A stretch of DNA of 64,000 nt from Mesostigma viride (Eukaryota; Streptophyta; Mesostigmatophyceae; Mesostigmatales; Mesostigmataceae), in assembly GCA_009746045.1 (NCBI GenBank), contig RPFO01000692.1, positions 787,140 to 851,139 of the forward strand. The letters are read 5' to 3'. A program made the translations under genes and the position numbers. Numbering within the stretch: position 1 is the stretch's first letter; each line of letters starts with the position of its first letter. Under the pieces are notes generated by a model. That model worked only from the letters and a program-made list of their open reading frames with translations. It was not told the origin of the DNA and ran no database searches. Positions 29,867 to 59,204 of the stretch are shown here, piece after piece.

Positions 29867-30122
29867 ATGCCACCAAGACGGAGCGAACCTGTCAACAGAG
29901 AGATAGAACAGGTAGACAACCACGAGCAAGGTATAGAGGTGGTAGAGGTACCACCGCACGTCCAAGTAGGGACAGGTACAGGTGAGGTCATGGAGAGACC
30001 TGCGGAAGACTCCCCACGATCCAGAGACCAGGGCCGCAGAGATTCATCAGATGATGACAGTCCAGACTCCAGGGTGGAACAAGGGGGAGACGGGCGCAGC
30101 CAGGAGATGTTCCAGCAGGGTT

Positions 30123-30168
<46 letters not shown>

Positions 30169-31420: not shown

Positions 31421-31555
31421 GATCGAGGCTCACGACTAGCCTCCGGACAGCGTGCGACCTTTGAGTCACCAGCAGTGGCCGGTTACGAGTTTGCCGCTGG
31501 GAAGTATACTATAATATATATTACTATATTAGTATATTTAACTAATAATTATATT

Positions 31556-32580
31556 TTTATAATATGTTCATTCCGGTGCGCTTTTCCAGTCCTAGTGGCT
31601 GGCCACCTTAGCCATTCTGAGAATGCCCACCTGTGTAGGGCAAGGGGGGGTGTCTGTTTTGCCCCACATCTGTACCAAATACCAAGGGTGCATTGGTCCT
31701 GCACAGTAGCAGGTCACCGGCTGTTATCATGATGTCAGTAGTACGAAGGGTGCATTGGTCCTGCACAGTAGCAGGTCACCCTGTTATCATGCTATCAGCA
31801 GTAAGGGGGGTGTTTGGAATCATACACTGACCCCATGCATGGACGCCGTTTGCGGTAATGGGAAATTACTATTAGGCGTGTAGCACTAGTGGTTTTATAT
31901 AGGGTACCGTTGGCGGTAATGGGATATTTTATATACGAGAATGTAATAATATATTCAGACACGGCCAACCAACCGTCATGGATGCCAAGTTTTTGGTCGA
32001 CACAGGCGCTTCCACGTCCTTCCTCAACGCGGCACTGGTGCGCCGGCTGGGCCTGACGCCCAGCCCCCACACCGGCCGGCCGTGCATCTGACCCACTCGG
32101 ATGGTCGCCAATTAACACCAATCGCCCGGTCTGGCAGCGATCAAAGGTGTGCTGCAAGGCACCCCGTTCGACCTGGCTGCGACCATCGCACCGCTGGGCG
32201 CAGCGGACATCATCATTGGGCTCGACTTTGGACGCGCAGGATGTGGACATTCGCGTGCGCCGGCGAGTAGTTTGGTTTCCCGATGGTTCCTTTTGGTGCC
32301 CTGACCGCGAGTATAGGGCACATAGTATTACACACGAGCGCCCGGCGGTCCAGCATCCTTGACTCCTTGGCAGTAATTGGACGATCGCGTGGACGCGTCG
32401 TCCTCGGGGGAAGGGGAGGGGTCGCAGAGCGTATGAAACCAGATGGCTACTAATAATACCATATACTTCTTTACTATACCTACCTTTTATATACTAAGTA
32501 CTTGTACTGGTCCACTACACTTCTTTATGATACCATACTCTTCTTAATTATATCTAGCTCCTGTATGATCGGCACGGTTC
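31556..32580 (+). mobile_element. Protease-containing segment of Ty3-like element, copy 2
   Basis: Matches 361-1383. It includes two roughly 60 bp tandem units (GAAGGGTGCATTGGTCCTGC...) at about 31680-31800. It ends at GGTTC (32576-32580), where the inner LTR retrotransposon inserted. The segment resumes at 43395. Confidence 0.8.
31978..32365 (+). pseudogene. Retropepsin remnant with intact DTGAS
   Basis: It begins MDAKFLVDTGASTSFLNAAL, keeping the catalytic Asp that copy 1 lost. The reading frame ends in TGA after GRPCI. The remainder, with AADIIIGLDFG and VRRRVVWFPDGSF, needs two frame changes that are identical to those of the copy at 785. A stop-free protease therefore does not exist in either copy. 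Confidence 0.75.
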
Positions 32581-33228
32581 ATTTAGATGAACGCGGATCA
32601 GTGAGTTTCTGGTCTTCCCAAGATGTGATGAATGGAGCCATGGTTTCAACCAGCGGCTTTTAACCTTTACGTACCACAGTTGCCTCACTACCCTGTGGTC
32701 ACTAGCCTGAGGCGGCAGCACCCACGGACGGTGTTGGGAAAAGACGCTTGGCCACTGCTGTGTCCGAGCCTTTCTAGGTCTCACCATTGCTGCCAGGCCT
32801 TGCACGCCTTGGCAGGTCCGCCACTGTCAATTTCCTTGGTTGCATCAATCCAGGACGTCTGTCCTTCCATGAATGACAGTAACGCTCTGGATTTATCCGT
32901 CATGACAAGTACCCGTCCATCCCAGGCCTGCAGGACTGCCAGTCCTGAAGTCCTGTGACATTCTTGGTACCATCAACCAATATTGACCACAGTACCTCCT
33001 AGTGACAGTCGGTCCTGTGACACGTAACGTGTGATGGTTCACCCAACACTGCCACGTGCCCTGTCCCTCACGTGTCCTTAGTCCTGGTACTGCTGTAGCG
33101 TCCGGCGGCATTACTTCGGGACTTGATAACTCTCAAGTTCCTTGTCCAAATGAGGCGTTTAGCACGGCGTTGGAAAGGCCACTTCAAGTATGACATGCTT
33201 AGCATATTGCATCACCAATATGCTAACT
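32581..33228 (-). repeat. 3' LTR of inner retrotransposon
   Basis: 648 bp, nearly identical to 42751-43394. The only clear difference seen is CGTA present here in TTTACGTACCACAG. On the coding strand a purine-rich AAGAAAGGG lies just upstream of the LTR and could be the polypurine tract. Confidence 0.85.
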
Positions 33229-33470
33229 CCAACCCTTTCTTGTTTTGGAGCTGCAAGCTTCACACCATGACCAACCCATTCCTTGCTGCCTTGTGAAATG
33301 GACACCTGGTTACCCTGGACTTATAATAAGCCTCATGAGCACCCCTTTTGCCACCTTAATGGTATCCTCTTTTAGGGATCTATGGTTCAACCCTGCCAGC
33401 TGATCATTAACTTGACCTGCAGGTCATCCCCAACCCTTTCTTTTGCAACTGTACCTTGGCTTGGGCTTAA

Positions 33471-35187
33471 CTCGTCGTCTGTCCCTGGTCCTCTACGGAG
33501 GACTGAGTTGAACTCAGTCCTCTCTAGAGGACCGAGTTTTTGGGTTTCGTAGAAAACTCGCCACGGTCAGAATGTTTGTCAAAAAAATTCTCTCAAAATT
33601 TATTCAAATACTACGTGAAAAGATCTTTCTTGGACATATTTTTGGGATTTTTTTGGATTTGGTATGAGCTAAATGTACGGTCAAAGTACAGGTGGTAAGG
33701 GTACTTTTCCACGTGAAACGCGAGTTCCGGAAATGCACGACCTAGCCATGGCGGCTCGCGCCCATGCATGCAGTTTACGTTTGCGGACGAGTTAGCTGTC
33801 CAAACTCAGGAAATAGATTTAACATGCCCTAAAGATGATAAAAATCAATTTTTAGCTCGCGGGGATGCGATTTACCCGGTGTCGGCACTGTTCTTGCTGG
33901 AAAAATCTGCGATAAGGCAGGTCGACGGAATTGATGACGGCGCTTGCTTTCCGGCGCAATTTCAATGGCTGATAGGTTTCTTTCTACATTTTAACATGCA
34001 TTGTATTAGAATAAATTGAGTGACAGTATAGATTTGATGATTTCGACCATTCTGTCACGTCATGGTCTATGTGCCGAAGAGTGCCACTTTTGCGGGCACC
34101 GCCTGGGCCAAGGTAACGCCAGCCGTGCCAGGTAAAGCCGGATAATCGTTGCCTCTTCGTTCCTTGATGTTCGTACATGAGTTTAAGCTTGCGAGGCGTT
34201 GTCAGGTTCAGGTCTTGATGCTGTTTCTTGACCGTTGCCTGCCCCTCTCTAAAACCCCCTTTTCAGATGATGTTAGCAGGCATTTGCCTTAACCCAGTGT
34301 AGTTGTGCAGGGTTTTAGGAGCTGTGCAGGTTTAAACACCTTCGTAGATGTTAGTTATTCTTTTGCTACGTTCATACTGCATGATTGTGTGGCCACGGGC
34401 TGCGTCAAGGGTGCATTCAAGCTTTTACGGGTGAGTGAAAAGTCTTGGTGACAAACCACTGCCATCATGTGCCAGCAACTATGTTGGCCACATCATGGCA
34501 AGGCAAAACAGTTATAGCCATATCTATTGTTGTTAGAAACAATGGAAATATGCTTAACCTACCCATTATATTGGTGGTTGACACTTATAACATAACCCTT
34601 TGTTGGTAGGTATCCAAGCCCATTCCCTACATGCATGCATAGGCTCTCACTACATGATAAGGTATGATATACCTGAAGTATGATGATGCAAGTGTGTTGT
34701 CCTGTAATGCTTGAAGGGAAATGAGTTGATTGGGATGGTTGGTGGCCACGGTATTGTGTAGTATGACCGCACTTACATGCTAGCAAAGTTAGCAAAAGCC
34801 CCATTCCTCTCCTGAGGACTGAGAGTTTTTTAATTGTTTCAGGCAGTTGCAGTGGCCAAATTGAGCCCAGTTTTTTGCCACGTTTCAAGAACTATATTGT
34901 TTACATGCCTATATTTTTTCTTCATGCACCAGGATTTGATTGAATTTTTCCCACTCGTTCTTATCCCGAAAAATGCAAATTCGCGAGCGGTGCCCAACGT
35001 CCGTGTAATTTTCAGGTGTTCGGGTCAAGTTTTCACATATGAAGTATTTTTGCCAACAAAATGACATCTAGTACACCCCCGATCCACATCAAAACATTTG
35101 GGATGGACCCCCCACCTAGTCGCTACACGCGGTTGAAAGTTGTCAACTCAGTCCTCCTGTGAGGACTGAGTTGGGACAGACGACGAG
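33471..35187. mobile_element. TTAA-flanked DNA transposon with 15 bp inverted repeats
   Basis: A 1717 bp insertion with perfect ends CTCGTCGTCTGTCCC...GGGACAGACGACGAG and TTAA on both sides (33467-33470 and 35188-35191). A TTAA target duplication is typical of piggyBac and a few other superfamilies. Both subterminal regions carry palindromes built on AGGACTGAGTT. Inside are only short frames (for example 83 codons at 33768-34019) without recognised domains, so it is non-autonomous. The TIRs do not start with CCC as usual piggyBac ends do, so the superfamily is open. Confidence 0.8.
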
Positions 35188-35191
35188 TTAA

Positions 35192-35702
35192 AGGAGGATA
35201 TTGAATATTCCTTAGGCAACATATCCTGGATATCTGAATGAGAGGCCCTGACTACAGGAAACGTATTACAGTGAGTTCCTGGTCTTCCCAGTTATCACTG
35301 GCGCCCGTTTCATGGCGCCCGCCCCGAGCGTTCCAGGCATCATCCATCCAAATGTTCACCAATGGAAACCACTTCAACACCACTGTGCCACTGCTTGATG
35401 GGGAGCCCATGTCATCACTGGGTGTTAAAGCCCAGGAGTCATACATACCAGGCTGTGGCTCAACTAGGGAATCGAACCCTACCCCAGAACCCCAGGTTAA
35501 ACTTAACCTGGTCACATGACAGACAACAAGAGAGATTGGCATACAACATGATTATGTTTTATTATAGAACATCCACCAAAACCAATGTTGAGTGTTCCCA
35601 GTGGACCAGCCTGCACCAGCAAGGCCCAACTGTCAGGTTACAACACCATAATATCCAAGGTTGTCACTTATTCACAGCTAAAGAAAACTAAACAAGAGAT
35701 AT
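35192..35702. other. 3' region of inner element; tRNA-like B box
   Basis: No gene. On the minus strand GGTTCGATTCC (within 35460-35480) matches the RNA polymerase III B box, with a perfect T-arm-like stem TAGGG/CCCTA. The rest of a tRNA cloverleaf is not apparent, so a tRNA-derived SINE or chance are both possible. Confidence 0.35.
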
Positions 35703-36511
35703 ATATTAAAAATATAATTACTTACAGCAGAGTGAAATCACTCAAACCAAAGCAAACGCCCAGCTATAAACCTATATACAGAGCCATGTCAAAGCTCTAT
35801 ACTACGATAAGACCAATGGAAACGCCTAACGGGAGGAACCTAATAGCCCTGCTGCACCGCAAAATCAGCCCGCGTACGGCGGAGCATGATGTCAGCCATG
35901 GCCTGAGTCAGCGCCACCGACAAGCGCTGACGCCAATATGACGTCCAGGTCCGCGCCGACCATGGGGCCCGCTGGCCCTCCAGGTCCAGCCGGTCCTCCC
36001 GGAGCCGGCAACACTCCTTGAAGAAGGCGGAGGTCAGGGGCCCCATGGCCCCAAACTCCTCCAGGACAAAGGGCACCACACGATGGTGCCCGACGTCGCC
36101 GTAGGCCAGGAGCTTGGCCCGCTCCGCCCGGTCCGCCGTGTAACCTGCCGTGAGGGAGGCCCCAGCCACGTGGCTAAGAGCCAAGGGCCGCGCCACCGAA
36201 ACGTCAATAAGCAGATGCCGGCCACCCCCCTCAAAGTCCAGCACCACGATGTCAGGCCGGTGGTTGGGGGAATAGAAGGCAGCGCCATCCGCATCCTCGG
36301 ACCGGATGTTCGCGTGGGGGAAAACCGACCGAATCATGGCGAGCACCACCGTCAGGAGGACAGTGTGCAAATACAAATACCAATTCTGATTCTGTTGGCC
36401 CCCCATGCAGGCAAGGTAGTGAGTCCCCGTGGGATCCAGCGGCTGCCCACAGCTACCACAAGGCCGCCCGGCCGGAACAAGAGGCTGCGGGGCAAATAGC
36501 TGGTGCCGGAG
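35703..36511 (-). pseudogene. 5'-truncated RLE-type non-LTR retrotransposon
   Basis: Minus-strand C-terminal coding region (stop at 35840) with its full 3' UTR down to about 35703. In order: a zinc finger CGSCGQPLDPTGTHYLAC (about 36470-36415), a linker, the PD-(D/E)XK-type motif RPDIVVLD and LLIDVSV (about 36260-36190), and a helical tail ending RRTRADFAVQQGY. A CCHC finger before RPD...D is the hallmark of the restriction-like endonuclease of R2-type elements, which nicks target DNA for reverse transcription. The reverse transcriptase is missing through 5' truncation at about 36511. The 3' tail TAAGTAATTATATTTTTAA abuts (TA)n. It sits within the 3' part of the inner LTR element. Confidence 0.7.
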
Positions 36512-36609
36512 ATATATATTAAAAATATAATTACTTACAGCAGAGTGAAATCACTCAAACCAAAGCAAACGCCCAGCTATAAACCTATATACAGAGCCAT
36601 GTCAAAGCC
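36512..36609 (-). mobile_element. Short RLE 3'-end insertion with 13 bp TSD
   Basis: Only the last 90 or so bases of the RLE 3' UTR are present, flanked by CCGGAGATATATA on both sides (about 36506-36518 and 36609-36621). This is direct evidence of target-primed insertion with extreme 5' truncation. Confidence 0.8.
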
Positions 36610-36828
36610 GGAGATATATATACAAACAACCTGGAAGAACTCTCAACATGGCCTGCCCTGTCATGGCCTAACTGCCCGAGGCCAAAGGCATCCCACTGTG
36701 CTAATCCTTTACAGGAAGAGCTTGCTCCTGTTGAGCCTTCTACCTGCTTGGTGACAGGTAGGCTACCTGTTGCCCTCCCCCCTGGGGACAACAGCACTGG
36801 TCAGCCACCAACTGGCAAAGGCTGGACT

Positions 36829-39800
36829 TCAAGTCCCACCAGAAAAGGGGTACATGAGCCCTTTGAGCACAGGGTATTGTAGCTCAGCCTTGCTCTCCAG
36901 CTTGGTGAGGGCGTCTGCTGGGTTGTCAACACCAGGCACATGTTCAAGATGAGCAAGGTAAGACATCTCCTTCAGCAACAAATAATCCAGATCCCTGCTC
37001 CTGGCGAGCTGTCTGTGCACAAACTGCACCATGCCCATGCTGTCTGTCTTGACCAGTGTGTGCAGCTGCAAGCTACAGGAAGCTACCTGACAGAGCTGGT
37101 AGAATAACTCCCTGAGGTAAAGAGCAGTGTGTAGCCCCTCACATATTGCCCTGCACTCAGCAATGTCACTGCTGGGCGTCACCCTGTTCTGTAACCTACT
37201 GTACCAGCTGACCAGAGAAGTGTGCTCCTGTTGTAGTGTAATGAGTGCTGCTGCCCTACCCCTGACATCCGTCACCTTCCTGCTGTCCATGGAACTGTCC
37301 ACAAAAAGCACCATGTTGAGTGGTTTGTACAAGTCCACAGCTGCCAGTATGAGTGGAGGTGAGCTCCTGACAGACTCAACCACCTGCTCTGCCCCTACCT
37401 CAACCAGCTGAGCATCTGTGAGCCTACTCAGCACCAACAAATCTGGGGCACAAATGCTAGCTAGCCAAGCCAACATTCCCCTGATTGTGGCACACCTGGC
37501 CTGGGTAATGGGCTGCTGGAGGGCATCAATGATCTGCTGAGGATAGTTGTTGCCACCCTCCATCTTGATAAACCAAGTACCTGCCCTCTTGATCAGCGTG
37601 GCCTGCATTCCACAAAACACCATGGGCTCATCCTGCTTCATGTGCTGGACCTTTCCTAACTCAAACCTCTTCTGGATCTTGGACAGTACTGAATCCACCC
37701 ACTCAGGAGGCCCTAAAAGGTGCAGGTCATCTCCATGCAGAGATGCAAACACAGGCAACCCTTCATGAGTACTCTGGAACAAGCAAGGATCAACTGGAGA
37801 CACAGTAAAGCCACAGTGAGTTTTCAGAAACTTTTCCAGGCTCTTTCTCCAGATGATAGGGCTGGACCTGAGACCCTCCAAACCCTTGAGTATTCTGAGA
37901 TATTTTGACTTGATCTCTGCTCTCCACACCTTGGGCACTGTTACAAAGAAGGGAGGGATATCACGCCACGTCTCCTTGGCCTGCTCCACATCACCCTTGA
38001 GAAAAGCCCTCTTGAAATCAATCAGCACAGAGCTGTACGCAATGCCCTTGACCAGGAAAGACAGATATATACACAGAACAATCCTCCAGGTATCATGCAG
38101 CATCCCAGGCGTATACAACTCCTCATCTGTCAGCTCCCCCGTGCCATGGTACTCAGTCACAACTGGCCTCACATGTGGCACCTGCACACCGTCTATCTCC
38201 TTCAGCTTGAGCACAAACAAGAGCCTTAGCAACTGATGCTCCCTGGGCAACTCATCCACAGGCTCAGCACAGTTAGACACTATCCAGTCATGCCCACTGG
38301 AGACAAACCCTAGAATCCATGCCTTAGCCATCTTGGGGCTTTGCATCAACTCTACCAACTGGTGCCAGGAAATAGGACTGTGACCAGCAATCTGGTACTT
38401 GTGCACCCCCAAGTCCCGTGGATCTAGGGTGGTTGGGATGATCAACAAGTCCTCAGCAATGGGCTCCTTGCCTTCAGGCCCCACACTCTGCTGCCCCTTC
38501 ACAGCCTTGACTGCCACAGCTAGACCCTTGGAGTAGTGATATCTCTGGAGGGGCAAACTGCCATGACCTTCTAGTGCAAGCTCATCTGCTGACAGAGTCA
38601 CTCCTGGCATGCACAAGAAATTCTGGCCCAAAATGGCAGGCCCCTGGTACCCTTCCACCACACAGAACGCAGTGGGGACACCCAGGATAGGCACAGTCAC
38701 TTCCCCTAGGATCTTCATTGTTACAGTGCCCGTAAAGTCACTCACTGCCCTGCAGCCAGCCTTATTCACCTTCAGGCCCTGAGCATCCTCCACCCTGATG
38801 ATAGACACCTCTGAGTTAGTATCCACTTCTAGGGTAGCAGCCCAGCAAGAACCCCATTCAGTCAACTTAGATACCTTGGGATCCTTGTGCTTGTTGAACA
38901 TGAGCGACCGGACAATGTCTGCCATGAGTGGCCTCTTGGACCCTGGTGCAGGCCCAGCCCCCGTTGGCTCCACCACAGGTGATGCAGTTGCCTCCTGCAC
39001 CTCATCATCATCAGAGGGATAGCCACCTCCCACGTCAGTGACAGGCACATCAACTACCTGGTCCTTAACCTGGCCCTCCAGCCAACACTGGGGTCCAGGC
39101 CCGTCTGCAGGCCAGATTGCATGTGGCTTGCGTTCCTTGACGTTGGCCCAGCTCAACCTGTAAACATGCCTGGGATTACTCTCCAAGGCCACAAGGCAGG
39201 AACGATTGGCATCTTCCACACAGGTCACCACCCCGTTCTGCCACTTGCCCCTCTTGCCCTGCATTGATGGCTCCTTCCACATTCTGACCTTCAGCCCCAC
39301 CTGAGGCCTCAGCACATTCCAGCCCCTATCCTTGCGTCTCAACTGAGCAAACACCCTGTCTGCTTTCCTCAAGCAAGCCTGGACCACTTCCTGGGCTAGC
39401 ATCCCAAACTGCAGTGCTACAGGATTGACAGCCACCCCGTCATAATAGTAGTTTATTCTGAGGTTCAACTGTTCTTCCACCTGCCTGGTCCACACTGCCC
39501 TCTCCAAAGCAGATGCTACCAGTGGCACCTTAGGTTCTGCCAGCACTACGGTCTTGACCTCCCTGATGGATCTCTCCACAGCACCTTGCTGTCCATGGCT
39601 CTCCCTGGGCGTGACCAGCAGCTTGCATGGCAGTTGCTCCTGCTGTGACAGTAGGCACTCAAACTGAATATCAGCCTGTACTGTCTTGTACACCCCAAAG
39701 CCTGGTAAGAGAGTCTGCAAGCCCAGCAGCAGGGTATTCCCCTTCATATCTGGCAGAATCTGGAGCAGCCTGTACCTGCTAAATCTGTCCACTGCCACCA

Positions 39801-40365
39801 AAATGTATAAGCCCCTGATATGCTGGACGTCTACCTGGATGTCCCCCTTCTCCCTGGCAGGCTCCCTAGCATGGGACCTTGGCTTCTTGGCAGCATTCTC
39901 CTTACAAGCACATTGCTCAGCTGCAGCCCTGCATGCTTCCCTCAGTGGCTCATCTCCAATCTTCCAACCAAACATCTCAGCCATGGCTGTGTGACCAAAG
40001 ATATTGTGCAGCCTGCGTCCAGCATCCGTGTAGCTCAGTTGCCTAGCCAGATTACGCACCTGGGAAGACGCCTGGACGGGCCCTGCGTGTGAGGACGCAA
40101 CATCCACCTTCTGCATCTTGGATCCAGAGGACCCAGCAGACCCTCCCAGCAGAGCATCTAGGCTCCCAGAGCCAACCCTGTCTGGGGACCCTCCACCTGT
40201 TGACAGTTGAGGGGATTGTTGTGCTGCAGCATGCATGCAATCTTGTGGAATGAGAACATCAGTACACCCCTGGTGCTGATCAGAGGTGGCACCCTGCCCA
40301 GATTTATTTACATGTGAAGCTGTGTCCCCACAGGGTGTCTCACTATGTACACGGGACTGCTTCAC
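36829..40365 (-). CDS. pol: Pol polyprotein with order integrase-protease-RT-RNase H
   Basis: A single 1178-residue frame. A GAG-pre-integrase-like HNIFGH and Cys cluster (about 120-153) precede the integrase core. Its acidic residues are near 179 (VDVQHI), 232 (QADIQFE) and 264 (GQQGAVERS). A retropepsin-like domain follows at about 505-600: LEVDTNSEVSII (Asp515, DTN instead of DTG) and PAILGQNFL. Next comes a copia-type reverse transcriptase: DFKRAFLKGD (Asp783), KGLEGLRSSPIIWRKSL, and the active-site box LHGDDLHLLG (877-880, HGDD replacing YVDD). RNase H comes last (VDSS, SSDIAECRA, TDSMG, DNPADALTK). Copia elements normally have protease before integrase. The frame is the same as gag and is separated from it only by UGA CUA GUG at 40371-40363, which suggests stop readthrough. 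Confidence 0.9.
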   Translation of the reverse strand: MKQSRVHSETPCGDTASHVNKSGQGATSDQHQGCTDVLIPQDCMHAAAQQSPQLSTGGGSPDRVGSGSLDALLGGSAGSSGSKMQKVDVASSHAGPVQASSQVRNLARQLSYTDAGRRLHNIFGHTAMAEMFGWKIGDEPLREACRAAAEQCACKENAAKKPRSHAREPAREKGDIQVDVQHIRGLYILVAVDRFSRYRLLQILPDMKGNTLLLGLQTLLPGFGVYKTVQADIQFECLLSQQEQLPCKLLVTPRESHGQQGAVERSIREVKTVVLAEPKVPLVASALERAVWTRQVEEQLNLRINYYYDGVAVNPVALQFGMLAQEVVQACLRKADRVFAQLRRKDRGWNVLRPQVGLKVRMWKEPSMQGKRGKWQNGVVTCVEDANRSCLVALESNPRHVYRLSWANVKERKPHAIWPADGPGPQCWLEGQVKDQVVDVPVTDVGGGYPSDDDEVQEATASPVVEPTGAGPAPGSKRPLMADIVRSLMFNKHKDPKVSKLTEWGSCWAATLEVDTNSEVSIIRVEDAQGLKVNKAGCRAVSDFTGTVTMKILGEVTVPILGVPTAFCVVEGYQGPAILGQNFLCMPGVTLSADELALEGHGSLPLQRYHYSKGLAVAVKAVKGQQSVGPEGKEPIAEDLLIIPTTLDPRDLGVHKYQIAGHSPISWHQLVELMQSPKMAKAWILGFVSSGHDWIVSNCAEPVDELPREHQLLRLLFVLKLKEIDGVQVPHVRPVVTEYHGTGELTDEELYTPGMLHDTWRIVLCIYLSFLVKGIAYSSVLIDFKRAFLKGDVEQAKETWRDIPPFFVTVPKVWRAEIKSKYLRILKGLEGLRSSPIIWRKSLEKFLKTHCGFTVSPVDPCLFQSTHEGLPVFASLHGDDLHLLGPPEWVDSVLSKIQKRFELGKVQHMKQDEPMVFCGMQATLIKRAGTWFIKMEGGNNYPQQIIDALQQPITQARCATIRGMLAWLASICAPDLLVLSRLTDAQLVEVGAEQVVESVRSSPPLILAAVDLYKPLNMVLFVDSSMDSRKVTDVRGRAAALITLQQEHTSLVSWYSRLQNRVTPSSDIAECRAICEGLHTALYLRELFYQLCQVASCSLQLHTLVKTDSMGMVQFVHRQLARSRDLDYLLLKEMSYLAHLEHVPGVDNPADALTKLESKAELQYPVLKGLMYPFSGGT

Positions 40366-40374
40366 TAGTCACTT
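40363..40374 (-). promoter_or_regulatory. Candidate stop-codon readthrough site between gag and pol
   Basis: AAG UGA CUA GUG on the minus strand: the stop is in frame with gag upstream and pol downstream. UGA followed by CUAG is a known leaky context in several cellular and viral genes. Readthrough would give a minority Gag-Pol product. Confidence 0.6.
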
Positions 40375-41692
40375 CTGATCAGACTGCCCCTTCTTCTTGT
40401 TTGGGCAATCCCTCTTCCAGTGACCTTCCTTGCCACAAGCAAAACACTTGCTCTTGCCAGACCCTCCCCCTGGGGCCTTGCTGTCCTGCTTGTTCTGGTT
40501 GCCTGAGGCCTGATTGTTATTCTGCCCCTGGCCACCACCCTTACCCTGCTGATGGCTGTTACGGTTGCCAGACTGGTTCCCCTGATTCTGGTTCCCCTGC
40601 TGACCTCCTCCACCACCCTGGTTCTGCTCCTTCTGGGCCTGCTTCCTTCTCCTGCTACCATACCGTGTCCCAGATGGGGTACGGTTCTTGCCCTGGCTAG
40701 CCTGAGACGCTGACCCTCCCTGAGAACTGATACCCTTGCAGGTAGGGACCCGGGTCCTGAAGTTTAGTATCACACGCTTCAGAGCCCCCCAGGTGCCATC
40801 AGTGAGATCACAGAGCTGCCTAGCAGTAGCCCTACCTTCCTCTGACAAGCCCATCTTATCAAAGAAGTGGTCTGCTGCTGCCCTGACTGTCACACTGAAG
40901 CCCTGCTTCTTGCCTGCCTCCACGATCAACTCAAACCTGGCCAGCTCAGCAGCCACCTCACCCTTGATCTCAAACTCATCAAATTCTCTCTTCTTTTCCA
41001 TGGTGAGATTGTGAACCCTGTCAGAAAACTCCTCCTTGATGTCATCTAGGAACTGTAGCCAAGTGTGCCCCTCTTTCAGAGCATGCCTAGCCATGTCATT
41101 GACCCTTTCAGACGACCCCTTGTTTGCGGTGGAAGAGTGAAACACCCTGACAATATCCACACCTGCTGCGACAGAGCCCACGACTAGCTTCATGTCATCA
41201 AGCCATTTATCCAGGTTGTCTTGCTTCAGGGAGGGTTGAGCGCTTTCTGCCCATTCATGACTGTCACAGCATCAGAAAATGGACGGGTGCCAGGCAACAC
41301 ACTCCCCACACGCACTGGTGGTGCCTGGGGAGGGTCAATCCTAGCCTCCAAACGCTCGGGCAACATACCAGACACCCTATCGTGAACAGCAGCTTGCTTT
41401 GCAGCACGCACACCTGGGGTGACGATGGCGTCCTCCTCACCAGGCGTTGTGAGCACCACTGCTCCGTAGGTCGCCTGGCACGCTTGACTTTCTCCGCCTC
41501 AGCTTGCCCATCACGCCACCGCTTGTGTGTTCTCCCGGCTCTGGGGTCCATCTCTGGGATAGGTTGCCCAGCTGGCGCCTCCACGCCCCTCTCCTCCATC
41601 GCCTCCCCTTCCTCTCTGGCGATGTCCTCCTCTGCCGTTCGCTCCCGTTGCTCCTCGAATGTCGCCGCACCCCGGCTTGCCCTCCTAGGCAT
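40369..41692 (-). pseudogene. gag: Gag of inner retrotransposon (two frame changes near N-terminus)
   Basis: The N-terminus begins at 41692 (MPRRASRGAATFEEQ) and is acidic and Arg-rich. Two frame changes follow, near 41470-41450 and 41245-41230. The main frame to 40369 contains a helical capsid region (TWLQFLDDIKEEFSDRV, EVAAELARFELIVEAGKK), a Gly/Asn/Gln-rich linker and the zinc knuckle CFACGKEGHWKRDC. It ends QSDQK-UGA. Since pol is open and the LTRs are nearly identical, the frame changes could be recent mutations, assembly errors or spliced introns. The Asn/Gln linker before the knuckle is shared with the related element at 58646-59158. Confidence 0.75.
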
Positions 41693-41760
41693 TATATACA
41701 ATGGCTGCGACCAACTTTGCAACAAGAAAACAGCAAACTCTCCACCTATCCTCCACCCCC

Positions 41761-42726
41761 TCAAGCCTCGTTTTCAGACGAAGCTTCTCCTGCAACCGGT
41801 GCAGGTGCTGGCTCGTGGAACGGTCCCTCCACCGGATTCAATGGCTGCCCCTGGTCGTCGTGAGTAGGCACAGGCCTAATAACCACCGGAAGCCTCAAAC
41901 CATACGCGTAATCACGTATCCAGCGAGAACGCCCCCACCTCAGCAAATGAGCCTCACCTAAACCAACGTTGTCGTCAATGTGGTAGCGATTAAGCTCGTC
42001 CCGCTGCGCCTGCTCACGGCCCTCCTGAGAGCCGTCGCCCTCGTGACGCCTCTGGGCCGGCTGTACTACCGCCCCTGCTGGCTGATCTACGAAGTCGTAG
42101 AAGGCGTCGTCGGCTGAGACCTCTCGACCGCCAACCACGTCGACAGTCAAACTTAGCTGGTTTAACTCTCGGCGAGAATGTGGAGTATCCCGACTAGTGT
42201 AGATGGAGAAGGGATTAAGAGTAATGAAGACACGATCAGCAGCGCCTCTGGTCAACTCTAAGACAGAGTGCGCCAGATTCTGGCACTCTGCCACCAACGC
42301 CTGCGTACTGCCACGAACGATGGCCTCCCGCCTGTCCCGGGCGACCTGCACCACGTTTGGCACGCCGGTGTAGTCGTCCCCAAGGCGGAGATTGGCGACA
42401 AGGTCGTTTATCTCTCGGGCACCCCCGAGGCTTATGGCAATTATCTGCAAAAGCAGAGTGACCACCTGCTCAAACGCGAATGCGTTTGTGTGGCCAGCCC
42501 GCCAAGACGCTGGCAGCCTTCTGATGATTTCCGCGAGGTCCTCGCGAAATCTCAGCAGCTGCTCGGCTGCTCCTCGGACGTACTCGCCCGGCGCCGACAC
42601 CGCTCGAATATTTCGGCGCACTTCCTCCGAGTCCTCGTGCCCTCCTGCGGGTACTGGACTGGACGCCGCTACCGTTGCTGCACGCGCAAAGGTGTTTGTC
42701 CTAGCTTCAGAGTCCGAATTCGACAT
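41761..42726 (-). CDS. Unknown 322-residue protein at 5' end of inner retrotransposon
   Basis: The first gene after the 5' LTR, starting 25 bases inside it (MSNSDSEARTNTFARAA) and ending 68 bases before gag. The frame stays open a further 39 codons into the LTR, but the ATG at 42726 lies just past the LTR. The protein is mostly helical: REDLAEIIRRLPASWRAGHT, EQVVTLLLQIIAIS, and a middle part with ADRVFITLNPFSIYTSRDTP. Then come an acidic/Gln stretch and a Pro-rich C-terminus (EPAPAPVAGEASSENEA). No zinc finger, protease, membrane span or nuclease motif is visible. Position and orientation make it part of the element, perhaps a matrix/capsid-like accessory protein or a captured gene. Function is unknown. 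Confidence 0.65.
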   Translation of the reverse strand: MSNSDSEARTNTFARAATVAASSPVPAGGHEDSEEVRRNIRAVSAPGEYVRGAAEQLLRFREDLAEIIRRLPASWRAGHTNAFAFEQVVTLLLQIIAISLGGAREINDLVANLRLGDDYTGVPNVVQVARDRREAIVRGSTQALVAECQNLAHSVLELTRGAADRVFITLNPFSIYTSRDTPHSRRELNQLSLTVDVVGGREVSADDAFYDFVDQPAGAVVQPAQRRHEGDGSQEGREQAQRDELNRYHIDDNVGLGEAHLLRWGRSRWIRDYAYGLRLPVVIRPVPTHDDQGQPLNPVEGPFHEPAPAPVAGEASSENEA

Positions 42727-42750
42727 ATCCGTCGACCAGACTGTAATACG

Positions 42751-43394
42751 ATTTAGATGAACGCGGATCAGTGAGTTTCTGGTCTTCCCAAGATGTGATG
42801 AATGGAGCCATGGTTTCAACCAGCGGCTTTTAACCTTTACCACAGTTGCCTCACTACCCTGTGGTCACTAGCCTGAGGCGGCAGCACCCACGGACGGTGT
42901 TGGGAAAAGACGCTTGGCCACTGCTGTGTCCGAGCCTTTCTAGGTCTCACCATTGCTGCCAGGCCTTGCACGCCTTGGCAGGTCCGCCACTGTCAATTTC
43001 CTTGGTTGCATCAATCCAGGACGTCTGTCCTTCCATGAATGACAGTAACGCTCTGGATTTATCCGTCATGACAAGTACCCGTCCATCCCAGGCCTGCAGG
43101 ACTGCCAGTCCTGAAGTCCTGTGACATTCTTGGTACCATCAACCAATATTGACCACAGTACCTCCTAGTGACAGTCGGTCCTGTGACACGTAACGTGTGA
43201 TGGTTCACCCAACACTGCCACGTGCCCTGTCCCTCACGTGTCCTTAGTCCTGGTACTGCTGTAGCGTCCGGCGGCATTACTTCGGGACTTGATAACTCTC
43301 AAGTTCCTTGTCCAAATGAGGCGTTTAGCACGGCGTTGGAAAGGCCACTTCAAGTATGACATGCTTAGCATATTGCATCACCAATATGCTAACT
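42751..43394 (-). repeat. 5' LTR of inner retrotransposon
   Basis: 644 bp, partner of 32581-33228. The internal region starts CGTATTACAGTCTGGTCGACGG. TGGTCGACGG, 12 bases in, is a weak candidate primer-binding site, since no initiator-tRNA-type sequence is present. Confidence 0.85.
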
Positions 43395-43399
43395 GGTTC

Positions 43400-46300
43400 G
43401 GCTTTGGATCGAGCCGGCCCGGGATCGATGCGCCAGCGTGCGGATATTATATATTTTCGATATTCTCTATTTTCTATATAATATATTTTCTCCATGATAT
43501 ATTCTCTATGGGATAATCTGCAGTTGGCGGTGGGCTTGAACGGGTCGTCCCGAAGAGGACCACGTCAGGTACTCAGCACCGCATGTGCACATGGTCCTGG
43601 CCTTTTTGGACATGGGCTCACCGGATGCTTGATGATTCTACTACTAAGGCGTCCGTACCGAGGCATCTCCGCGCGGGATGCCGGATTCGGCAGCGAGTGC
43701 CAGCGACCCCAGGCTACGGCCTGACTGCACGTCGCGTCCCGCGTGACCAACGGACGCGGAGTCCCATGGCATGCGGCCAAGTATTATTATAGGGAGCCTT
43801 CCGGCGGGCGGCTATGAGTCACGGCTCCCTGACTTCCTAGCGCGTGAGGGACGTGCTTGGCTTCTCGTGCACCTGCACGTGATTAATTTCACCAGTGCGG
43901 CACGGTGCGTGGAGACGGCACGGTGCATGGAGGCTGTTGCAACCCCGATGCGACTAGGCGATGAGGCAGGGCGGAGCCTGTACTGAATCGTGGTCGGCCG
44001 GCAAACAGATGTACAGCACCTTGTTAATTGTCGGTAGCCAACCAATTGGCTACCCCGGCATTGAGTCGACGCCTAGCTGGGTCAGGGCACTCCTGGGCTC
44101 GAGTAACCGTGCATGCAGGGCGCGCCCGCGTCCGCCGCGACCGTCGGGAGTAAGGGCCCCCGGGGCTGCAAGCATATGCGGGCACGGTGCAGTTGCATGG
44201 CGACAGCACGTACTGCCGGCAGTAGTGGTGGATGACCCAGCCGGTCGTGGTTGCACTGGTTGCGCTGGTGCCGATCGTGGTTGCATCAGAAGCAGGTGGC
44301 GGTGTCCGGTCATTGTCTCACCGCCTCAACAGTGCGCGTGCATGGTGCCGATGCCACATGATGTGGCGCTGTCGCCCCGCAGACTGCCGGTGTCCGAGTA
44401 ACAACCGGTATCACTGCATGCATAGGGCCGGTACATCCGCTCTGAGCGGACCCGGCGCTGACGCGCGCTGAGCCATGGCAGAGCACTGAGGTACATGGGA
44501 CGTGCGGGATCGGGCCGTCGAGGGCGAGTCACGGGGACTGTAGTAACGGCGACCCGAGACTGAGAGGCAGGCAGGATCGAGCTGCTGGAGTCTGAGCACC
44601 TAGTCACTGCCCGCGACCCTGTGCATGGCTACCATCGCGCAGTGTTCGCGTCCCTCCTGTGGGCTGAGCCCGGTAGGGAGTTGTTCCTTGCACCACTGGT
44701 GGAGGCCGATCGAGCGTGATTTGCAAGTGGCTCGTGTCCGCGCGCCTACGAGGTTGCATGGATGAGGGACTCAGAGCAGGACGTTCCATGTGCATGGCGG
44801 GCGGGCTGTGTGGGCTTCAAAATGTACAATACCCCATGGCCATGCAATGGTACAGGGGTGGTGAGAGGCCTTCAAGCTTCGAGTGGGGGATGTGGCAATG
44901 CGCGGTGGGGACTGCATACCTTGGGGCGTGTTTCTGTTGCGGGAATGGGGATTCTGGGCAAGACAGTCAAGCGGGGTGGACAGGCGGTGATCGGTCGTGC
45001 GCGGCATTGACCCCGGTCCACGATCGCTGTATGTGCTGGGCGCGATCGAGCCCGAGGAGCTCTTGTTTGGGACTGCGGGATTGCTTCGGCCCTACTCCAT
45101 GAGCAGCACGGTGTCTCGCAGGGGCAACGTTACTGATACGGCAGTTCCTGCAAGGCGTGTCATTCCCCGGCCTGCCCAGGCATTGCATTGTATAAGTGCG
45201 GGCATTGCGGGCGCTATGCAGTCCACGTCGGCGGCCTCGAGCATCACATGCATATGGGCCTGCGCAAACATCAACCGTGCTCTTGCGGTGCGAGTGTCAC
45301 GGAGGGTGTGACTGCGAGCTGAGGAGTTTTCCCCCGCTTGCGGTGGAGTTCAGGCACATTGGCAGTAAGGAATGCGGGGACCGGCGACTGCTCCGGTCTA
45401 TGCACGTCGACTGGAGTGGTGTTGTGCCTAACTTCCTGCAGCTTCGTGGAGGAGTTGGCAGGGCGCACTCCAGTGGACACGCTGGGGCCCTGCTAGTTTT
45501 GGGCACTAGCTTAACGTGCCATATTATCCAAGTTTCCGGTGTTGATCGACTTTGACTGTTTCCTGCGCTGGATAGAGACGGCGGGGCGCACTCTAGTGGA
45601 CACACTAGGGCCTTGCGGGCACCTGCATGCGTTCGCAGGTGCATGGGAGGCGCACTCTAGCGGCCACGCTAGGGCTTCCCCCGCTATACAGCCACTCCAG
45701 CGGCGGCCAGGGACGGCCACGTTGCATGGCCGGTTGGCTCACGGCGCACCTGTATTTGAGATGACGCGTACAGCCGTCGGTAGTGAGGCGATGGATCAGT
45801 TTCTCCTGGTGCACGCCCTCGCTTCTGAGCATGGAGCCTGCACTGCATGCTGTGCCTCACAGTCGTCGACGCTAGTAGTACTTCTTAATCGTCGTGTGAT
45901 CACGCGCATCAGTCGCGCTGTAAGACTGGGTTTCGGCTGGATGGGATACATGACTGGCCACCTCGTCGGCCGGATCATCAAGTTGTATGCATGAAAAATA
46001 TTCCCTCCTGCTGACAGTCCCGATTGGCTATATAAAGAGTTGCCCTTGCGTGGCAAGTCTGGGGGGACCTGGTTTCACTGGCCCGTTGGTGCACAAGGGC
46101 TGGGACATAGTACCTGTTAGGGATATTATATCCACCTGGCCACACAATGTATCCCAGCCTGATTTATTTCTTGTTGGATTTATTCCATATGGACTGGGAA
46201 TTTGATAGCTATGATAAGCTAGATGGATTGGGCTCAATGAGCTGATCAATATTCATGTGCCATAGTCCTATACTTGGACATGGATGACTTGTACCCTGAG

Positions 46301-47386: not shown

Positions 47387-48065
47387 TGTTACGTCCCGGC
47401 CCTTTTGGACGGACGTAACAATGGAATAAATTATGGAGTTTGACTTGTTGTCATAGTCCGTAGTAGGACTTTGGGGCTCATTTCGGGACTTAATTTGGGA
47501 ATGGTCCCTGGGTCAGGACTTTTGTATGGAACTATGACAGTTTGTGTGATTCGGACCAGTTATTTTGGGCCTAGGTTGTTGTATGCGTGTATCTTCTAGG
47601 GGGCGGTGCAGTCGCTCCGCGCTGCGTACTTTATCAGCTAGTTGATGAGATATTGTACTCATGCGTGGATTCTGTAGGCGAGGGTCGATGTCGACCCGAG
47701 GATCTCGTGTGGACTGCATGCTTTGGAAGGTTGACGCCATGTCGGCGCCCCTTGCCAGCGTAGTGGCAGACCTAGGTGAAATTGGTCCGAAGACGAGAGT
47801 CTCGTCCTCTTGGTTTGATGAATGATAAGTGCGAATACGCCTACACATTGAGCCCGGGGCAATTATCCATTTGTAATTGGTCTTGCTAGCCATTATAAGT
47901 GTGTACAATTAGCTTGGCATCAAGCCGTGATGCCAGATATCTCACGACTCACGTCGTGAAGCGCAACCTACATTGGGCCATCTTGAATTATTCCTAATTC
48001 CGGCAAGGAGGGTCTTTCGCTACGTAGCTCATGCAGGCTAGGTGTGTCTGGGCTGGGACGTAACA
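47387..48065 (+). repeat. 3' LTR of nested Ty3-like element
   Basis: A 679 bp TGTTACGTCCC-family LTR directly after a polypurine tract. Nearly identical over its 3' half to the partial 5' LTR at 28207-28552. Confidence 0.85.
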
Positions 48066-53422: not shown

Positions 53423-53428
53423 GAACAA

Positions 53429-53441
53429 TCCTCCGATACCA
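53429..53441 (-). other. Primer-binding site, initiator-tRNA type
   Basis: TGGTATCGGAGGA on the minus strand, directly after the LTR end. It closely resembles the TGGTATCAGAGC-type copia PBS. Confidence 0.8.
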
Positions 53442-54299: not shown

Positions 54300-55445
54300 T
54301 CAAACACTGACTCTGATATCATAGGGGTTCATGTTCTGAAAGAGGAGCTGGTACTGTTGGCCAGCAGCATCCCGCAGCTTCGTTAGAGCGTCTGCTGGGT
54401 TGTCCTCATCATCCACATGAGTCCAGCTGGAAAAATAGGTGGCCTCCTGTTTGAGGATCACCCAATCCAAGTCAGTGTGGACAGCAGCAGAAACAGATTT
54501 CTTGGTTAGAAAACTGATCACAGAAAAGCTGTCAGTGTAGAGATGTGAGATTACATTGCATGTGCTGCCTGCCTGGGTTTGTAGCCAGGTGAGCATGTGC
54601 TGCAGGGAACGAGCATGCAATGCAGCAGACACCACAGCACGACATTCAGCTGAGTTGCTGCTGCCAGGTTTTCTGCGGTGTAGCCTGCTGTACCAGGAAG
54701 TGAGGGACATGTAATCTGACCTGTTGGTGAGAAAAAACAGCCCTGATTCCCGTGCCCCCATCTGATTGATTGTTCTGCTCTCCATGGAGCTGTCCATGAC
54801 ACATTGGATGTGGATGTCTTCCATCAGATTCAGGCCATGGAGGATGAGGGGGGGACAGTCTTTGACCAACTTCCTGATGTGACTGCATTTTATCTTGACT
54901 AGAACATCATGGGTGACCCTGCTGATGACAGCTAAGGGAGCCCCACAGATGGCTGACCACCACCCCAGTTTGCCCTGAACAGTGGCACACATGTGTAAGG
55001 GGAGTTAGTTGTCCTGCAGCAGATCTAGACAATCTTGGATATATTCTGCAGGAGGGGAGAGAGAGCAGACCCACTGATCTGGCTGCCTATGCAGCTGCAA
55101 CATGATGCCACAGAACTGGATGGGGGTTGTGCTCAATTCCACCTGTTTGCCAATCTCATATGATTCCTGGACCTGCTGAATAAAGGTTTCCACCTCAGCT
55201 CTAGGCCCACAAATGAGTTGGTCATCTCCATGCCACACAAAGAACAGCAGTCCAGAGGGGGTGGGTACAACAAAAAAGCATGGGTCCAGGTCATCATACG
55301 TGGCCTTGAGCTTTTTGAATACTTCCTCTGCTGAGTCTCTGAAAATTTTTGGGGCACTGACAAGCCCTTCCACCCCAATGTTGATGATAAGGTGGGGCTC
55401 ATCAATGTAAGGTTTCCACACAGCTGGGGTGTCTACCACGTACAC
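54300..55445 (-). pseudogene. pol: RT/RNase H part of second unusual pol (interrupted)
   Basis: Two frames. 55445-55005 encodes the second half of the reverse transcriptase: FVWHGDDQLICG, again HGDD, preceded by DPCFFVVPTP. It ends in a stop after LLQDN. 54992-54300 encodes RNase H: VMDSSMESR, NSAECRAVVS, YTDSFSV, DEDNPADALTK. It continues the polyprotein at 56333-57976, from which it is separated by the 882 bp palindromic insertion. The frame break near 55000 is a second lesion. Conservation of HGDD here and in the intact element argues that it is a family feature rather than a mutation. Confidence 0.8.
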
Positions 55446-55450
55446 CTTCC

Positions 55451-56332
55451 AGTTACGTTAAATAGTGCCGGAACCCTTTGCCGCCTGAGGCAAATCGGTC
55501 CGTAACACTATTTTGCCCGGAATAACCACTTCCGAGCACCCAAGTTAATTCGGCCGAATTAACTTGGGTGCTCGGAAGTGGTTATTCCGGGCAAAATAGT
55601 GTTACGGACCGATTTGCCTCAGGCGGCAAAGGGTTCCGGCACTATTTAACGTAACTAAAACCTGGCCTCGTGGAGGGGGGACGAAGAGCCCGAGACATCC
55701 GCCTAGGCCGCTGAGCACGCACCACTAAATGCGCCGGAGCTGCCTCAGTGAGGATTCGAACCCCTGACCTCCAAGGTGCACGGGTTTTAGTTACGTTAAA
55801 TAGTGCCGGAACCTTTTGCCGCCTGAGGCAAATCGGTCCGTAACACTATTTTGCCCGGAATAACCACTTCCGAGCACCCAAGTTAATTCGGCCGAATTAA
55901 CTTGGGTGCTCGGAAGTGGTTATTCCGGGCAAAATAGTGTTACGGACCGATTTGCCTCAGGCGGCAAAAGGTTCCGACACTATTTAACGTAACTAAAACC
56001 CGTGCACCTTGGAGGTCAGGGGTTCGAATCCTCACTGAGGCAGCTCCGGCGCATTTAGTGGTGCGTGCTCAGCGGCCTAGGCGGATGTCTCGGGCTCTTC
56101 GTCCCCCCTCCACGAGGCCAGGTTTTAGTTACGTTAAATAGTGCCGGAACCTTTTGCCGCCTGAGGCAAATCGGTCCGTAACACTATTTTGCCCGGAATA
56201 ACCACTTCCGAGCACCCAAGTTAATTCGGCCGAATTAACTTGGGTGCTCGGAAGTGGTTATTCCGGGCAAAATAGTGTTACGGACCGATTTGCCTCAGGC
56301 GGCAAAAGGTTCCGGCACTATTTAACGTAACT
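55451..56332. mobile_element. 882 bp compound palindrome with 5 bp TSD
   Basis: Three roughly 206 bp perfect or near-perfect palindromes (about 55451-55658, 55792-55999, 56125-56332) begin AGTTACGTTAAATAGTGCC and centre on TTCGGCCGAA. They are separated by a roughly 130 bp segment and its exact inverted copy, so the whole insertion is one palindrome around the middle unit. CTTCC flanks both ends (55446-55450, 56333-56337). It splits the reverse transcriptase of the surrounding element. Confidence 0.9.
56000..56050 (+). other. tRNA-like B box in palindrome spacer (inverted copy at about 55735-55785)
   Basis: GGTTCGAATCC is an exact Pol III B-box match, with TGGAGGTCAGG upstream like a variable region. 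No full cloverleaf is visible. It may be a tRNA 3'-half relic. Confidence 0.35.
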
Positions 56333-57976
56333 CTTCCCTTTCCACACAGATTCAGCCTTTTCTGGGTCCCCCCTGAGGAAGGCCCTTTTAATATCAGTGG
56401 CTTTGCAGACATAGTCTTGGCCTGTATTGAGGTTGTGTAGGAATAGGGAGAGCATGATCCTGAGTGAGGTTTGTTGCAACCCAGGTGTGTAGGTTTCCCC
56501 TTTTGGCAGTGTGGATGTCCCCTTTAATTCTGTGACACATGGTCTGGCATGGAAGATTGGGGAGCCCACTTTTTGTGGTTTTTGTTTGAGAACAAATTTT
56601 AATCTGAGCTTTTTGGCTCCCTCTGGCACGTCCCATGAAGGGGTGACAGGAGGTTTGTATTGAGGGTTTTTGGGGTTGGGCAGGACCCATTCCTGCCTGG
56701 CTTGGTGGACAATGGCCATCAGCCACTTGGTAAACCCTTTTTGTGTTTTGCATTCTTGTATGACGTGGGAGATTTGGTGGGGTGAGTGCATGGCTATGTC
56801 CCACTTACCCAGCCCAAAGGCTGAGGGATGGAGGAACTGGCTGTGCACTAACTTGTCCAGATCAGGGATCTCCCCTGGTGCATACTGAGTGTTGACTGCC
56901 TTGATGACAGCATCCATACCAGGGACAATACTGGAGAGAGGGATTTTAAAGTGGTCCAGAGGAACTGCACCCACCCCTGTGACACTGAGCTCATTAGCTG
57001 AGATAAGCACCCCAGGATAGGATACAAAAGGTTCCCCCAACAAGGTGTTACCAGAGTACCCCTCCACCACCTGGAAGGGTGTCTGAATACCAAGTATAGG
57101 GAGCATCACCTGTCCCACTACATCCAGTGAGCTTTGGCCTGAGAAATCCTGCACCCGTGCCCAAAATGAAGGTGCAATCTCAAGACCAGGGATGGCTTGT
57201 GCACTGATCACACTGACCTGTGCCTGAGTGTCTATTGCCAGGGTCCAGGGGTCCTGACTAGTGCACACAGCTGAGACTTTTGCCAACCCTTCGGCCACAG
57301 CAGCTTGTTGCTTATGTGACCTGTGTAATGCTTGCAAGGCGACTGCCAATCTTGACCTCAGAGCGGGAGGGTTGGCAGACAATTTGGTGCCTTGGGGCTG
57401 AGCTAATGCTTCCAACCCAGCTACCTCGTGCCTGGTTAAGCAATCCCCAGGTTGTGAAGTGGGCTTGGCTTCACTGAGGGTGGAAGGGTTCACAGAGGGT
57501 GCTGTGGTGCTGTCAACAGCAGTAATTGGTGGCTCAGGGCTACTGCTGGGCATGCTGGAGTTGCCAGATAGAAGTAGTGAGTCCATGCTTAAAGACTCTT
57601 CCCCAGGCACGTCTGCCATGGGAGAATAATACTTCTTAATTCTATGACAGCTCACCCTGTGACGCTTCCCATTGATATTGTGCTTGACCTCCACGGTCTT
57701 GCTGTTTTTGGTAAATCCACGGATGGTAACTGGACCTAGCCAGGTTCCAACCTTACCAAAGCTGTTTTCCTTGTAATAGAGAACTTGATCACCTTTTTGG
57801 AATACTGGCCTGGGATGGGTTTTATCTTTTTCTGCCAGTTTTGCTGAGGTTTGTGCACGTGCAGTGTTGTACAGTGCTATCACCTCTGGGGGATATACAC
57901 CTGCCTGCAGGCCTGCTGGGATTACTTCACCCCACTTGGCATGCAAGACAGGTCTCATGTTTAGGGTTGTGCACAT
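56333..57976 (-). pseudogene. pol: Integrase C-terminus, protease and RT start of second unusual pol
   Basis: The frame opens within the integrase C-terminal region (HAKWGEVIPAG, VLYYKENSFGKVGTWLGPV, KRHRVSCHRIKKYY). A linker follows, then the retropepsin-like domain: WTLAIDTQAQVSVIS (Asp249, DTQ for DTG) and GNTLLGEPF at about 310. The block PGVLISANELSVTGVGAVPL matches the intact relative. The reverse transcriptase begins (LRLKFVLKQK...TDIKRAFLRGD, Asp528) and is cut at 56333 by the palindromic insertion. The order integrase-protease-RT is therefore seen independently here. Confidence 0.85.
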
Positions 57977-57998
57977 TTCATGACACCAGAGTGCCCTG

Positions 57999-58690
57999 TC
58001 ACAATAGACCCCTGAAGTAGCAATGATCCTTGGAAGGATTTTTGGCTAGTAGGGTTTTGACAGATCTGATGGTTCTTTCAATGACCCCCTGACCCTCATG
58101 ATCTTCCAGCCCAGCAAACTCTATTGCTTCACACCCTTCCAGATCAGTCAGACAAGAAAATTGTTGATCAAGCAAAATTCTGTCAACTGGGTAGAATCTG
58201 GGTAAAGCAATCATGAGTGCAACACGTAGCTGCCCTGCAGACATGCCAGGTAGGGGTTCCATTACTGTGAACCTGGACCATGAGTCTTTTAGGATCAGGT
58301 AGGGTTGGACATCTTTGTTGATGTGCATCACATCCCCCACTATCATGCCTCTAGTGGTGGAAGGAGTTGCAGTATGCCATTTTTGAGGTTTGGGGCTATT
58401 GAACTGACATTCTTGACAGTGTTGTCTGGCCAGTTTGACTGCATTCCTGAGTTGTTTTCCCATGCTACTACCCCCCAGCCGTTTGGCCAGTTCCTCAGCC
58501 ACTGTTTCATGACCCATGGCTAGGTGCAGCTGATGAGCAAGCTCCTTGATATCTATGGAGTTGTCAACAGTAGGGGTTAGTGCTTTTATGTAAGGTTCCA
58601 GGACAAGGTGTTGGGAGGACAGTAAGGTTGCTGCCTCAAAATCAATTATGCCCTGGCTGCCATCCCCAATGGTAATGAGATCATCATCCT
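57999..58690 (-). pseudogene. pol: Integrase core of second unusual pol
   Basis: A pre-integrase segment (ELAHQLHLAMGHETVAEEL) and Cys pair CQECQF precede the catalytic core: GDVMHINKDVQPYLILKDSW (Asp), RILLDQQF (Asp), GQGVIERTIRSVK (Glu). The frame is lost near 58025 by a single-base change; downstream sequence continues in the 56333-57976 frame. Upstream it overlaps the gag end in another frame. Confidence 0.8.
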
Positions 58691-59158: not shown

Positions 59159-59204
59159 GCATCTAAAGTTTCAACTAAAGTCTTTGAGGAAAAAAAAGTT
59201 CGTC

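Follow-up and report, generated by a model that had tools for sequence, protein, structure and literature searches.

A 64,000-nucleotide stretch of the Mesostigma viride genome (contig RPFO01000692.1, positions 787,140 to 851,139; hereafter the window) contains a long terminal repeat (LTR) retrotransposon, element 1, in whose pol frame a protease-like domain is placed after the integrase and before the reverse transcriptase (RT), together with pieces of a second, diverged element, element 2, that are arranged in the same way. The arrangement is real, repeated and conserved, and it represents a variant of the copia type among LTR retrotransposons. From its motifs the displaced domain is probably protease-like. 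The odds are even that the two families form one LTR retrotransposon lineage in which a clan AA domain between integrase and RT, with the active-site motif DTG altered to DTN or DTQ, would be the sole candidate for the maturation protease.

Domain order in the pol frame of element 1

A single minus-strand frame of element 1 encodes integrase, the protease-like domain, a copia-type RT and RNase H, in this order (Table 1). The first-pass annotation of the window had described this frame of 1178 residues at 36829-40365 and had named D179, D232 and E264 of the integrase, Asp515 and an ILG motif at 578-580; the frame and all of these residues were found where it had placed them. Both the HHCC and the DDE signature of the integrase are present, with HX4H common to the two elements, CXC in element 1 and CX2C in element 2, and 31 and 29 residues, respectively, from the second D to the E. 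About 120 residues extend from the gag stop to H120, the first zinc-binding histidine of the integrase. The expect value (E) of the rve match was 0.014 when the whole pol was scanned and 0.00039 when the integrase tile was scanned alone, and a match to IS481 transposase (E 0.00026) covers pol residues 167-277.

The RT was marked as copia-type on the basis of its match to RVT_2 (PF07727, E 8.6e-7, residues 705-910), which scores 29.2 bits at a curated cut-off of 31.6. The RNase H region of pol had no Pfam match. The roles of the motif residues in the integrase, the protease-like domain, the RT and the RNase H are those that we presume them to have. The catalytic motif of the RT reads HGDD in both elements (window 37726-37737 and 55008-55457) and differs in this from the YVDD of the Copia RT; one search of the open-access PubMed Central (PMC) literature for such a motif returned no paper.

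The same order in a second family

In the window element 2 is present in pieces, and these keep the order integrase, DTQ domain, RT and RNase H. Another copy of this family elsewhere in the genome, locus L022, has the four domains within an uninterrupted frame of 1225 codons, with DVMH at position 179, DTQ at 545, HGDD at 916 and PADALTK at 1194. The pieces at 54303-58715 and the single frame of L022 thus bear out the earlier claim that a second element shares the order. Comparison of the element 1 pol with two element 2 pieces by BLASTP gave E values of 1e-50 and 2e-19, so that the resemblance of the two elements exceeds chance. The insert that splits the RT of the window copy of element 2, at 55451-56332, is a nested palindrome that is almost perfect and has arms of 103 nt.

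The identity of the two families was determined for each part of pol from gapped alignments, with 20 shuffles as control (mean and maximum in brackets). It amounts to 42% in the retropepsin-like domain (27%, 36%), 43% in the RT palm (29%, 53%), 37% in RNase H (23%, 28%), 34% in the integrase (25%, 31%), 31% in the C-terminal part of the integrase (25%, 32%), 31% in the RT part next to the palm (28%, 41%) and 31% in the stretch from the domain to the RT (27%, 40%), while the linker preceding the domain stands at the shuffled level with 26% (26%, 36%). The control separates the retropepsin-like domain from its shuffles; for the RT palm and the part next to it the high maxima make it a weak control, which counts against the comparison there. 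At the first, second and third codon positions the identity is 0.49, 0.69 and 0.31 for the domain; the values for the linker before it are 0.33, 0.51 and 0.28. Judged by these alignments the domain is constrained as a protein and, because both its conservation between the families and the codon-position pattern point to this constraint, a decaying relic is disfavoured. The first-pass annotation had left the choice between a changed protease and a non-catalytic relic that was kept: the altered motif and the retention of the domain stand, and the conservation tells against a relic in decay.

Copies in the host genome

The host assembly (440 Mb, 2243 contigs) was searched with both elements, yielding 9999 first-look candidates for element 1 and 7424 for element 2; as only the best candidates were scored, the following counts are lower bounds. 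The pol of element 1 has at least 39 scored genome matches, 33 of which span the whole protein and 38 of which are free of internal stops, and the element 2 piece has at least 76, all listed at 99-100% identity and 74 of them without a stop. The loci fetched for closer comparison were the best-scoring ones, the window's own copies included. D-T-N and ILGQNF occur in 20 of 20 fetched loci of element 1 and IDTQ in 30 of 30 of element 2, and within each of these two sets the peptide of the domain is identical throughout. The motifs DTN and DTQ that had been read from the window therefore recur in the genome, and D515, the invariance of which had been singled out for checking, is present in every fetched locus of element 1. 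Due to the choice of the best-scoring loci the sameness within each family is biased upwards, which has to be set against the conclusion drawn from it; the 12 synonymous and 4 non-synonymous codon variants among the 20 loci of element 1 were not used as proof because the loci were chosen by protein score.

Since two families that are 31-43% identical per aligned domain share the order, with at least 39 and at least 76 matches, the order integrase, protease-like domain, RT and RNase H is very probably a trait of the lineage, as the first-pass annotation had held when it spoke against the rearrangement of one copy. That single copies were rearranged or misassembled might be suspected from the practice of a plant survey, which assigned 5410 and 8453 elements (13,863) to two canonical orders and removed those with unexpected orders as likely incorrect predictions (PMC6317226). 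This explanation is scarcely credible for matches that are spread over many contigs and mostly free of internal stops, and for an order that is equal in two diverged families; single-copy rearrangement was rejected on account of the many genome matches in both. As this lineage shows, with its dozens of near-identical copies and its other position of the protease-like domain, unexpected orders can be real and not mispredictions. Moreover, the near-identical copies and, in element 1, one LTR pair suggest that both families have been mobile recently. Scans of viral contigs, genome contigs and phages found no relatives, and the two matches of a plasmid scan (E 2 and 5) were taken for chance.

Identity of the displaced domain

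In both families D-T is followed by VSII or VSVI, and 61 residues lie between the T and a hydrophobic-hydrophobic-G motif near the C-terminus (ILG at 578-580 in element 1, LLG at 335-337 of the element 2 protein). Such motifs and spacing are typical of clan AA. The D, the T and the LG are common to the two families; the D[TS]G motif of the retropepsin active site is found in neither, as its glycine is N in all fetched loci of element 1 and Q in all those of element 2. The likeness to clan AA (PF13975, Ddi1, retroviral and Ty3-type proteases) thus comprises D-T, VSII/VSVI, ILG/LLG, the spacing and a length of about 100 residues, whereas the domain differs in the absent active-site glycine, in a Pfam score below the cut-off and in a fold modelled at low confidence.

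Up to E 10, no Pfam family other than PF13975 (gag-asp_proteas) was listed for the domain; its E was 0.16 in element 1 and 0.17 in element 2, and profile positions 14-90 and 9-89 of 92 were covered. Over 24736 models, an E of 0.16 corresponds to about 6e-6 per model, retropepsin being the family named in advance; this figure is weakened by the homology of the two domains, which are not independent, and by the presence of several retropepsin-type families in Pfam. Additionally, hhalign against five Ddi1-type chains placed the DT and the hydrophobic-hydrophobic-G motifs in register over 69 columns. On the motifs and the sub-threshold Pfam matches, the domain is likely to be derived from a retropepsin.

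Several results weigh against this derivation. Both domains score 13.0 bits, far under the curated cut-off of 28.2, PF13975 was not listed when the full-length pol was scanned, and one of nine control tiles matched a presumably spurious family at a similar E (0.14). The sequence matches in the PDB, taken up to E 10, include no retropepsin, and the hhalign score was equalled in 48 of 300 column shuffles. The AlphaFold models of the domain, for which only two distinct domain sequences served as input, were of low confidence (predicted local distance difference test, pLDDT, 35.0 and 42.4). A Foldseek search with the second of these models, to be given little weight, gave no match at E 0.001, and the 50 of 191 matches listed include no retropepsin. 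Of the retropepsin-like domain proposed in the first-pass annotation, the motifs held, and the fold check that it had suggested gave only low-confidence models. Sub-threshold Pfam scores, PDB matches devoid of retropepsins, low-confidence folds and a non-significant hhalign score would also be expected of a domain that is not a retropepsin at all, such as a lineage-specific beta-rich insert or an N-terminal extension of the RT in which DT..VS.I and LG are coincidental. Such a coincidence is improbable in view of the per-model significance of the PF13975 match in two homologues, with most of the profile covered, and of the two motifs falling into register in hhalign.

Expression of Pol and possible activity of the domain

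The stop that separates gag and pol of element 1 is a TGA followed by CTA G, and all 20 fetched loci have TGACTAG. In human genes the readthrough consensus is UGA CUA (G) (PMC4973966), and the pol of element 1 is probably made by readthrough of the UGA. Weighing against it, no exceptional structure was found in the RNA 3' of the UGA (z -1.15, with a fold at least as good in 25 of 200 shuffles). In Tca2 of Candida albicans a UGA stop likewise separates gag and pol; a potential pseudoknot follows the stop of Tca2 (PMC2194720), whereas the corresponding stretch of element 1 folds no better than its shuffles.

In keeping with the annotation of gag as having no protease, no other candidate was found in gag or upstream of the integrase. 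On the sense strand, neither 32581-43394 nor 53500-60500 contains the pattern D[TS]G[ASC]; D[TS]G occurs there five times, always in a frame of 29-93 codons, and two of these matches are the LTR copies. The proposed course of events is that gag would be made alone and Gag-Pol by ribosomes that read through the in-frame stop UGA CUA G, that the domain within Pol would dimerise upon particle assembly, like retropepsins, and that it would serve as the maturation protease of the element. D515 would be the catalytic aspartate and T516 the dimer-bracing threonine, in a loop without glycine, and the remaining cycle would be ordinary, with reverse transcription followed by integration with a 5-bp target duplication. 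We infer the retropepsin fold, the dimer, the cleavage, the readthrough and the recent mobility from the features described above.

Provided that the domain is derived from a retropepsin, its being catalytic or not appears evenly balanced. Each of the two families has exchanged the glycine for a different side chain, which tells against normal catalysis, and we know of no retropepsins with N or Q in place of the DTG glycine. It is a tentative and rather doubtful proposal that a copia-like lineage lost the protease upstream of the integrase and gained, between integrase and RT, another protease of clan AA, which would work with D-T-N or D-T-Q in two recently mobile families. The replacement of the glycine by N and Q, in a domain otherwise conserved to about the same degree as the RT palm, would also suit a retropepsin relic in non-catalytic use as a dimerisation or spacing module, with Gag-Pol either uncut or cut by the host or by a conventional copia protease; gag of the copia type is found together with Pol_BBD not far away, at 51771-53447. 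This non-catalytic use is possible, if somewhat unlikely, for D and T are retained in both families, two multi-copy families would both have to lack a protease of their own, and complementation in trans would seem awkward for elements that assemble in their own particles. For the reading as a displaced protease, the missing glycine provides a sharp test of what the retropepsin active site needs, or else of LTR retrotransposon mobility without a cutting protease, and the position past the integrase together with the altered motif raises the question of how such elements mature their proteins.

Comparison with known LTR retrotransposons

The order of the pol domains helps to define the superfamilies of LTR retrotransposons. 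With Ty1/Copia elements (Pseudoviridae) the elements of the window share an integrase before the RT, an RT of the RVT_2 type, RNase H in last position, a CCHC gag, LTRs and a 5-bp target duplication; they differ in the protease-like domain, which follows the integrase instead of preceding it and carries DTN or DTQ. Because this order does not agree with the definition of Copia, the class is given as copia-like. A further example of a changed pol order among LTR retrotransposons is that of the Gmr1-type elements, reportedly described by Goodwin and Poulter in 2002. These are of the Ty3/Gypsy type with the integrase shifted to a copia-like position (PMC2774666, PMC3587641), whereas here it is the protease-like domain that is found past the integrase. 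The Ty3/Gypsy order GAG-PROT-RT-RH-INT (PMC6317226), which Troyka retains (PMC12440569), is not that of element 1, in which the integrase precedes the RT. The LTR ends AGTTAG...CTAAAT of element 1 differ from the TG...CA of most LTR retrotransposons (PMC12440569).

The motif of the Ty1 protease is DSGA (PMC6952103), and in a copia element from the shrimp R. exoculata DTGC takes the place of DSGA (PMC3587641). In a survey of fungal elements the protease was more variable than the other domains and perhaps an exchangeable module, weak profiles being held the likelier cause (PMC3248453); the shifted protease-like domain fits the remark on exchangeability. Two DIRS-type structures with differing domain order are known from Symbiodinium, and DIRS-type elements have a tyrosine recombinase and are hence of another kind (PMC5890265). 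The order integrase, protease, RT is not mentioned in the excerpted parts of a paper on Ectocarpus (PMC12477816), and no description of it was found in the parts covered of the open-access PMC literature, a scope outside which Repbase and most subscription journals lie.

Structure of element 1 and other features of the window

Element 1 has the hallmarks of an LTR retrotransposon, namely LTRs, a target duplication and a gag with zinc knuckle. Its LTRs are 99.4% identical over 648 aligned columns and end in 5'-AGTTAG...CTAAAT-3' on the sense strand, and a purine-rich tract lies just upstream of the 3' LTR. The flanks of the element are 96% identical to window 318-4089, where a single GGTTC and no insert are found, so that an empty paralogous site is present within the window. 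The CCHC zinc knuckle CFACGKEGHWKRDC is located close to the end of gag. For the 321-codon frame upstream of gag only weak Pfam matches were listed (DUF3172, E 0.076; N1221, E 0.16), and the copies of element 1 differ in the length of the open frame upstream of the 3' part of gag.

Table 1. Positions of the features of elements 1 and 2 in the window
Feature	Position	Strand	Evidence or remark
Element 1, LTR retrotransposon	32581-43394	-	LTR pair and target duplication
Target site duplication GGTTC, left copy	32576..32580	.	
3' LTR, element 1	32581..33228	-	
pol open frame, element 1, 1178 codons	36829..40365	-	
RNase H, residues 963-1174 (D1023, E1070, D1108, D1151)	36844..37479	-	motifs and position
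Copia-type RT, residues 705-952 (D783, HGDD 877-880)	37510..38253	-	RVT_2
Retropepsin-like domain, residues 497-606 (110 residues; D515-T516-N517 ... I578-L579-G580)	38548..38877	-	PF13975, E 0.16
Integrase, residues 97-397 (H120, H125, C152/C154, D179, D232, E264)	39175..40077	-	rve match; homologous to element 2
TGA stop between gag and pol, element 1	40369..40371	-	frame equal on both sides
gag, 3' part, element 1	40369..41193	-	PF00098, E 1.8e-7
321-codon open frame upstream of gag, counted from first ATG after LTR	41761..42726	-	
5' LTR, element 1	42751..43394	-	
Target site duplication GGTTC, right copy	43395..43399	.	
Element 2, domain pieces	54303-58715	-	
RNase H, element 2	54303..54965	-	
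RT with HGDD, element 2	55008..55457	-	
Palindromic insertion splitting the RT in this copy of element 2	55451..56332	.	inverted repeats
RT start, element 2	56339..56632	-	
Retropepsin-like domain, element 2 (IDTQ ... LLG)	56957..57280	-	PF13975, E 0.17
Integrase, C-terminal part, element 2	57677..58000	-	
Integrase, N-terminal part, element 2	58035..58568	-	E 2e-19 to element 1 pol

Element 1 is bracketed by a 96% identical duplication (window 318-4089 and 31513-46000). Within the element, an insert at 35696-36608 comprises a frame of 188 codons and has identical 100-bp direct repeats at both ends; part of it (35866-36158) matches window 1-293 at 99% identity, and the terminal repeat of the insert is found again at 29625-29721.

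At 51771-53447 a copia-type gag (PF14223, E 1.8e-6) is followed by a weak zinc-knuckle match and then by Pol_BBD (E 7.6e-15), with no integrase seen; we take the position of Pol_BBD after the zinc knuckle to be the usual position of the protease. A gag-like frame lies at 29867-31417 (Retrotrans_gag, E 0.011, with zinc-knuckle matches), and a sulfotransferase frame is located at 18081-19271 (PF03567, E 4.6e-9). The region 46143-50140 resembles a DNA transposon flanked by long terminal inverted repeats, judging from large inverted repeats with 447-nt arms that are 99% complementary, further arms inside and 3.1 kb between them. At 59176-60000, and continuing past it, an 8-bp unit (CACCGTTG) forms arrays inside longer repeats with spacings of 159 and 184 nt.

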